A stretch of 64,000 nt of DNA from Eubacteriales bacterium (lineage in GTDB: Bacteria > Bacillota > Clostridia > Acetivibrionales > JANLFN01). Below the pieces are notes generated by a model. It did not search any database and was not told where the DNA came from. It was given only the letters and a program-made list of their open reading frames with translations. Positions within the stretch are counted from its first letter, which is position 1. Each line of letters opens with the position of its first letter. The stretch is taken from positions 62,001-126,000 of the forward strand of contig JANLFN010000002.1 in NCBI GenBank assembly GCA_024655885.1, in the 5' to 3' direction. Below, one piece after another: positions 7,484-9,224 of this stretch. A program made the translations under genes and the position numbers.

Positions 7484-7846
7484 TCACATGTCCAGCTTTG
7501 ATCCACATCTGGGGCAGTATATATAGCCTCTTTGCACTTTGGCATTACACCCCGGGCATTGCTTTTGGCCCTTGATTTCAACGATCTTTTCCTTCAGTTT
7601 TTCTATTCTGTCTTCACAATCTCTTATTTTCTCACATTTTAAGTTTATTTCTTCCTCTATGGGCCTTTCACCCTTATATGCCTCGTACACCAAGTTCCCA
7701 ATCTCAAGCATCAAAGTCCTTATCCTGTCCTCTTCGGATTTTATATCCATGTTGATTCTCGATATCTCCACAAACTCCCTTGATGAGTTAACCGCAGCTC
7801 TTGCAGAATTTGCCAGCTTATTGCGGGCGCCTTCCAGTATCGACAT
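7484..7846 (-). CDS. coiled-coil zinc-ribbon protein
   Basis: 120 residues starting at MSILEGARNKLANSARAA (GGAG, 9 bases upstream). Residues about 15-90 form an amphipathic coiled coil and the C-terminus is a zinc ribbon (CPGCNAKVQRGYIYCPRCGSKL). It is a paralogue of the protein at 62.8-63.3 kb: both have S-EFVEI/EIVEI followed by NMDIKSEEDRI/NVNIGAEEDKI and the ribbon after KQCPGC/KLCPGC. No membrane segment. Function is unknown; zinc ribbons of this type are common in clostridial proteins. Confidence 0.75.
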   Translation of the reverse strand: MSILEGARNKLANSARAAVNSSREFVEISRINMDIKSEEDRIRTLMLEIGNLVYEAYKGERPIEEEINLKCEKIRDCEDRIEKLKEKIVEIKGQKQCPGCNAKVQRGYIYCPRCGSKLDM

Positions 7847-7897: not shown

Positions 7898-8485
7898 TTA
7901 CTTTGTCCCGCGTCTCAGGTTCTTTTTTTTAGTCACTGAATACCCGAAATATCCCAACGGCTTTTCCAGGCTCCAGTACTCTCCGTGAGAAAAGCATATA
8001 AGATCGGCTTTGTCGAGACACAGCTTCCCCTTTTGGTCTATCAGGCTTTCATCTACGTTTACCGCCGCTATCTCCCCTAAAAACATGTGGTGGGAGCCCA
8101 GTTCGATTACATCCTTTACAAGGCATTCGATATTCACGGGGCTTTCCTTTATGAGAGGCACATCCACCCTGGAAGCTTTCTCCGGCGTCAGCCCCGTTGA
8201 AGCAAATTTATCTGTGTCCCTTCCCGATTTTACGCCGCAAAAATCAGTAGCATGGGCAAGCTTTCTTGTGGTCAGGTTGACCACGAACTCTCCCTTATTT
8301 TTTATAAGATCATAGGAATACCTCTCCTTGCGAACGGATATGGAGAGCATGGGAGGCTCGGAATTAATGGTGCCGGCCCATGCCAGCGTAATAATGTTAG
8401 GTTTTCCTGCCTGGTCCACGCATGTCACTAAAACTACGGGTACCGGGTTTAATATGGTCGAGGGTTTCCAAACTTGTTTGGATAT
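7898..8485 (-). CDS. flavin reductase-like FMN-binding protein, apparent AUA start
   Basis: The protein has the flavin-reductase-like fold common in anaerobes: NPVPVVLVTCVDQAGKPNI, ITLAWAGTINSEPPMLSISVRK, YSYDLIKNKGEFVVNL and a YFGYS tail. It should bind FMN and act in NAD(P)H- or ferredoxin-linked reduction; the partner is unknown. The conserved N-terminus (KQVWKPSTILNPVP) lies upstream of the first usable GTG (8428). Between it and the in-frame stop there is no ATG, GTG or TTG. An ATA codon at 8485 sits 9 bases after AAGGGAG, so I place the start there. The alternative is an assembly error or initiation at 8428 with loss of the conserved strand. The gene follows the endonuclease gene by 16 bases, which could allow translational coupling. 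Confidence 0.7.
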   Translation of the reverse strand: MSKQVWKPSTILNPVPVVLVTCVDQAGKPNIITLAWAGTINSEPPMLSISVRKERYSYDLIKNKGEFVVNLTTRKLAHATDFCGVKSGRDTDKFASTGLTPEKASRVDVPLIKESPVNIECLVKDVIELGSHHMFLGEIAAVNVDESLIDQKGKLCLDKADLICFSHGEYWSLEKPLGYFGYSVTKKKNLRRGTK

Positions 8486-8501
8486 ATTGATACACTCCCT
8501 T

Positions 8502-9224
8502 CTATTTTCTTTTTACCGTGGCCTGGGCATCCTGGCGGACAGGCGCCGTAGCCCTATTGCTTTTTTTAAACTTGCATAGGACACCGAGAGGGCATTCCAT
8601 GCAGTCAGGTTTTTTTGAAAAGCAGTAGTGCCCGCCTATCCCGTCAATCTGCGCATGAAATTCATTAAACAGCCGGGTATCGTGCGGAAGGTTGCCCATA
8701 AAAAATTCCTGCATCTCCCTATAGCGGATATTCTCCTCAAAGAAGCCCAGCCTGTTAAATATCCTCCTCGTATACGCATCTACTACGAATATTGGTTTTT
8801 CAGCCGCATACAGAATTATACAGTCCGCGGTTTCTTCCCCTATTCCGTATAATTTCAGCAGTTCCTCTCTAAGGGCGTACATTTCCTGCTCAAAGAACCG
8901 GTCCGGACAGCTCCCGTACTTTTCCCTTAAAAGCATGCAAAAGCTTTTCAGCTTCCTTACTTTTTGCTTGTAAAACCGGGTGCTCCTTATCAGTTCTTCA
9001 AGTCTCTCGTCATCCGCTTCACATATACCCTCCACACTTAATAACTGTTGAGCTTTCAAATTGTCTATGGCCGTAACAACATTTTTCCACGATACAAACT
9101 GGGTTAAAATAGCCCCAACAGCTACCTCAAAGCTTGTATCCGCAGGCCACCAGTTTTTAGGGCCCGCTTTTTCGTACATCAGGTTGTATATATGCAGCAG
9201 CCTCTGTTCCATATTTCGCTTCAT
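8502..9224 (-). CDS. endonuclease III-like DNA repair protein (HhH-GPD, [4Fe-4S])
   Basis: Base-excision repair glycosylase/lyase family. Helix-hairpin-helix ELLKLYGIGEETADCIILYA is followed by the catalytic-region FVVDAYTRRIFNRLG and a C-terminal cluster motif C-x6-C-x2-C-x5-C (YCFSKKPDCMECPLGVLC). Family members use Lys in the hairpin and Asp in VDAYT; here the Lys position is Glu (GIGEETAD), as in the MIG/HP0602-like branch, which suggests a mono-functional or altered glycosylase. 240 residues. It ends with a basic tail. The flavin-reductase gene follows directly. Confidence 0.85.
   Translation of the reverse strand: MKRNMEQRLLHIYNLMYEKAGPKNWWPADTSFEVAVGAILTQFVSWKNVVTAIDNLKAQQLLSVEGICEADDERLEELIRSTRFYKQKVRKLKSFCMLLREKYGSCPDRFFEQEMYALREELLKLYGIGEETADCIILYAAEKPIFVVDAYTRRIFNRLGFFEENIRYREMQEFFMGNLPHDTRLFNEFHAQIDGIGGHYCFSKKPDCMECPLGVLCKFKKSNRATAPVRQDAQATVKRK

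Follow-up and report, generated by a model that had tools for sequence, protein, structure and literature searches.

In the 64,000-nucleotide stretch of DNA analyzed in the present study (hereafter, the window), a minus-strand gene for a flavin reductase appears to be intact and to be translated from an AUA codon at 8485, which would be a lineage-specific replacement of an NTG start codon. We assign this reading a probability of approximately 0.74. The AUA start was originally proposed in a first-pass annotation, and it is now well supported by the starts of relatives, by a strong Shine-Dalgarno (SD) sequence at a spacing similar to that of infC, and by the conservation of the protein. The coding sequence (7898-8485) comprises 195 codons, including the ATA, and a stop codon. 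Its product is a flavin reductase of the flavoredoxin-like type according to its profile and structural matches, with a Pfam match to the flavin-reductase-like domain PF01613 (4.6e-33, 114.9 bits vs. a cut-off of 27) and flavoredoxin 2d5m as the best-matching solved structure (1.5e-34, with the alignment beginning at residue 9). Its own genome has a single match.

On the minus strand, the open frame extends from 8512 to 7898, and the only codons ahead of the conserved protein are AAA GAA AAT AGA AGG GAG TGT ATC AAT ATA. The earliest in-frame ATG, GTG, or TTG is the GTG at 8426-8428, and the claim that the conserved N-terminal segment lies upstream of it, with no canonical codon ahead, held true when the frame was read against orthologues. 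In the search of the order, 40 of 58 genomes, including that of the window, had a match at 1e-70 or better, and the N-terminus was read in 37 of the 39 other orthologues; L062, the N-terminus of which is missing from its contig, and the match in G029, which begins at residue 31 and at base 3 of its contig, were left out. Residues 3, 6, 12, 14, 15, and 16, all of which are upstream of the GTG position, were identical in 37/37 orthologues, and a GTG start would thus remove conserved sequence.

Regarding the start codons of these 37 orthologues, ATG was used in 24, TTG in 12, and GTG in one. The codon aligned to the ATA (8483-8485) was ATG, TTG, or GTG in 35, while ATG was found one codon later in the other two (L009 and L054). 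The ATA itself was shared by none of the 37, and the start is not conserved in close relatives, a property of some but not all known ATN-start genes; the genomes searched included no member of the same genus and only one of the same family (G001), the orthologue of which (L011) is 77% identical and starts with ATG. When the comparison was extended to 73 loci in and beyond the order, 71 relatives had an ATG, GTG, or TTG in frame, either at residue 3 or before it, and in a few of them, such as L041, L071, and L072, this codon was well upstream. The remaining two loci were L062, truncated before the N-terminus, and the window gene, which has no canonical start in this region. The gene, therefore, combines two features by which natural ATN-start genes are recognized: a non-NTG codon at the homologous start and the lack of a canonical in-frame option before the conserved sequence.

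Translation from the GTG at 8428, yielding a shorter protein, is very improbable. This GTG is the first canonical codon and would be selected by a gene finder restricted to ATG, GTG, and TTG; however, its predicted SD duplex is just -3.1, its use would remove residues 1-19 including the conserved segment WKPSTILNPVPVVL, and a canonical start is located farther upstream in all 71 relatives with an N-terminus. The comparison of starts in relatives suggested by the first-pass annotation is, therefore, in favor of the longer protein. At residue 19, the window gene has TTA (Leu), whereas 34/37 orthologues have Met.

The ATA is preceded by an extended SD sequence, AGAAGGGAG (8495-8503, minus strand), that overlaps the stop codon of the upstream gene. 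As originally described, the ATA (8485-8483) is located nine bases past AAGGGAG (8501-8495), and the spacer is TGTATCAAT (8494-8486). A helix of nine base pairs, one of which is G-U, is predicted between AGAAGGGAG and CUCCUUUCU, with further pairs beyond a bulge. The energy of the predicted duplex was -15.9 kcal/mol for the 22-base leader, and -13.0 without the six bases adjoining the ATA. The 16S tail used in this prediction (GAUCACCUCCUUUCU) was taken from relatives in the order because the search for 16S rRNA had no match in the window's own assembly (G000), although this is listed as 100% complete. TGGATCACCTCCTTTCT was present in 13/58 genomes of the order, including all nine single-contig ones, at two to six copies, and had no match in the own assembly or in G001. 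With the order's tail, the SD sequence is strong, extended, and suitably spaced, and the leader ranked first of 38 orthologues (mean of -9.7 for ATG and -12.8 for TTG). Its rank was also 1/38 with CCUCCUUUCU and was 2/38 with CACCUCCUUUCU, but decreased to 16/38 with the E. coli-like tail GAUCACCUCCUUA, and the argument from SD strength, therefore, depends on the 16S tail.

Such pairing is rare by chance: -15.9 or better was reached at three of the 3029 ATA trinucleotides on both strands of the window, including the present one, and in five of 2000 shuffled 22-base leaders. In a sample of the own genome (438,693 bases, 12.8%, 309 coding frames), the most favorable canonical start within 80 codons had an energy of -15.9 or better in 11 frames. 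The first canonical start was 14 or more codons into the frame in 48 of the 309, and among these 48, only the flavin reductase frame had a near-cognate codon ahead with an SD of -13 or better; the runners-up were a GTC (-11.8) and an ATA (-11.6) of other frames. This survey of late starts omits frames with a first canonical start less than 14 codons in, including both infC genes. Among the orthologues, SD strength differed between TTG and ATG starts (Mann-Whitney p of 2e-5 to 1e-4), which fits a stronger SD at a weaker start, but is not independent evidence because 11 of the 12 TTG cases were from one genus. No leader hairpin is proposed since the predicted structure of the leader RNA was no more stable than that of shuffles (z = 1.08).

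Two other possibilities were considered and rejected. The out-of-frame GTG at 8495-8493 is in the glycosylase frame past its stop and overlaps the SD sequence. A pattern search for an unusual initiator tRNA returned three matches; by eye, L076 resembles an ordinary initiator tRNA with a CAT anticodon and the other two look like chance.

The infC genes provide an internal comparison for the leader. The own genome has two copies, L074 (G000:C15:245629-246132) and L075 (G000:C7:106839-107342), with apparent ATT and ATC starts. Two copies were also observed in several other genomes of the order, and three in G027 and G037. In all 31 infC loci examined (the two own copies and 29 loci of relatives), TGT immediately followed the SD core and an ATN codon was found eight (8/31) or nine (23/31) bases past it. 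The apparent starts were ATT in 22, ATC in six, and ATA in three; the latter were L081, L095, and L098, each at nine bases. The leader of the flavin reductase gene resembles that of infC, in its own genome and in the order, in that the SD core is followed by TGT and, at a distance of eight or nine bases, by ATN, and its nine-base spacing matches that of infC in the order; its ATA, however, is not shared by its orthologues. Considering the three infC loci with ATA, ribosomes in this order probably initiate at AUA in infC as well, at the same distance, with the reservation that the infC starts are themselves putative because some loci, such as L075, have an in-frame NTG upstream. This spacing also bears on the AUC at 8491, two codons before the ATA, as a start. 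It is likewise near-cognate and adjoins the SD sequence (-13.0), but is only three bases from GGGAG, and the ATA agrees better with the starts of orthologues and with the eight- or nine-base distance in infC; therefore, we regard the probability of initiation at this AUC as negligible.

Another explanation is that the ATA is a sequencing or assembly error and that the true base is G, resulting in an ordinary ATG start. The source is a draft assembly of 65 contigs, the ATA is known from one base in one strain, a single G to A change suffices, and ATG is the most common start among orthologues (24/37); moreover, the finding had been selected for its oddity. On the other hand, when the full 16S tail of the order is used, the window gene has a stronger SD sequence than any of the 24 ATG-started orthologues, which a miscalled start codon leaves unexplained, whereas this argument fails with the E. 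coli-like tail. We consider an error to be unlikely. A scan for frames broken by a single stop identified 28 same-frame pairs, most of which looked like operon neighbors by eye.

The protein downstream of the ATA looks constrained at the sequence level. It retains 51/51 of the columns that are invariant among the 37 orthologues and 41/43 of the additional columns with 90% conservation or more, and in a leave-one-out control, it ranked 24th of 38 from the worst for column conservation. The pN/pS ratio was 0.17-0.20 against eight relatives, with nearly saturated synonymous sites; averaged over all orthologues, the ratio was the eighth lowest of 38. The terminal branch was longer than the median (0.21 vs. 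0.11, 32nd of 38). The gene is, thus, not an old pseudogene, while a very recent loss would look identical.

A recent loss of the start, in which the base is real, but the level of translation is inconsequential and decay of the gene has begun, needs to be weighed here. AUA was weaker than AUG at the natural sites measured in Staphylococcus aureus (PMC13009471) and in the majority of the Clostridium reporters (PMC9680021), as far as the available parts of these reports extend; the ATA is absent from the 37 orthologues in the order, a loss that is very recent leaves no further trace, and the terminal branch is long. However, the frame is open over its full length with all invariant columns, a low pN/pS, and a strong SD sequence, and the branch length fits the lack of near relatives, with a similar value (0.23) for L011 in the same family. 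Decay after a recent start loss is, thus, distinctly improbable, and the preferred reading remains that of an intact gene with an AUA start.

The upstream gene encodes an HhH-GPD DNA glycosylase (8502-9224, minus strand; Pfam PF00730, 1.3e-18), and a zinc-ribbon protein gene is located downstream (7484-7846, minus strand). Among the loci of relatives, the glycosylase gene was a neighbor in at least seven, the zinc-ribbon gene in at least four, and a phosphofructokinase gene in at least 10, all of which are lower bounds due to the short flanks of these loci. The stop codon of the glycosylase gene (TAG, 8504-8502) is 16 bases ahead of the ATA, consistent with the earlier description of a preceding gene that ends just before, and the coupling that was suggested on this basis is plausible at the sequence level. 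In L014 and L022, the glycosylase gene shares eight bases with the reductase gene; in L007, the two genes are in a single frame uninterrupted by a stop; and in four other relatives, they are 56-98 bases apart. In L007 (1380-1560), GGAGG precedes an internal ATG, which may reflect a fusion or readthrough with an internal start.

We propose that the nine-base-pair SD helix would anchor the 30S subunit at a distance of nine bases ahead of the AUA and that the initiator tRNA would then pair with the AUA despite the mismatch at the third position. Initiation may be increased by ribosomes that finish translating the glycosylase gene, which ends 16 bases before the AUA. Output would be expected below the level of an AUG start, perhaps at around a tenth of it, and we infer that it would decrease at high levels of IF3.

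AUA starts that are rare and weak, but functional, have already been demonstrated in a few other bacteria. In S. aureus, AUA starts of infC, ccpN, and citZ, which, similar to the flavin reductase gene, combine AUA with a strong SD sequence, were detected by Ribo-Ret, and in reporters, the AUA of ccpN and citZ gave approximately 10% of AUG in poor medium, with values as high as 30% for ccpN in rich medium (PMC13009471, in the part of the report available). These are other genes in another order and are backed by Ribo-Ret, together with reporters for ccpN and citZ, while the clostridial case is known from its sequence alone. A further parallel is that citZ is also a metabolic enzyme gene, the AUA of which is limited to strains of one S. 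aureus lineage (PMC13009471). The AUA of ccpN is conserved to Bacillus subtilis (PMC13009471), whereas the ATA of the flavin reductase gene is absent from its 37 relatives in the order.

In Clostridium, the relevant values were obtained with engineered gusA reporters, in contrast to the natural gene examined here. With one leader, AUU, AUA, CUG, and AUC gave 5-20% of AUG in C. butyricum and 7-17% in C. sporogenes; with another, six alternative codons including AUA gave 45-85 and 40-100%, respectively (PMC9680021). AUA and other rare starts thus work far better than in E. coli, in which the corresponding values were 0.1-0.3% with the first leader and 0.04-3% with the other (PMC9680021, in the portion available). 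Among the matches listed in a search of titles and the beginnings of abstracts in the open-licence literature, there was no natural clostridial gene with an AUA start.

A selected translational throttle, through which reductase output is set by the IF3 level or growth state via the infC-like leader, is conjectural, with some circumstantial evidence in its favor, and we consider it to be doubtful. For infC, with its AUU, AUC, or AUA start, autoregulation by IF3 has been described, and IF3 represses the GTC start of Streptomyces sigR (PMC5472188, from the part of the text available). Flavin reductase is not a translation factor, and, thus, a direct feedback loop of the infC type is not implied. 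The sigR gene is similar in that a rare start is found on a gene outside translation, but differs in its GTC codon, its actinobacterial host, and its experimental link to IF3 (PMC5472188).

Few natural AUA starts were found in the literature examined. A clean clostridial case would support the call to reconsider gene annotations in Clostridium that was made in the accessible part of PMC9680021. The alignment of orthologue starts combined with SD strength may identify such genes, whereas a gene finder restricted to NTG codons would cut 19 residues in the present case. If the throttle is real, it would tie a redox enzyme to the fidelity of initiation outside Streptomyces and Staphylococcus, in a genome with two infC genes.
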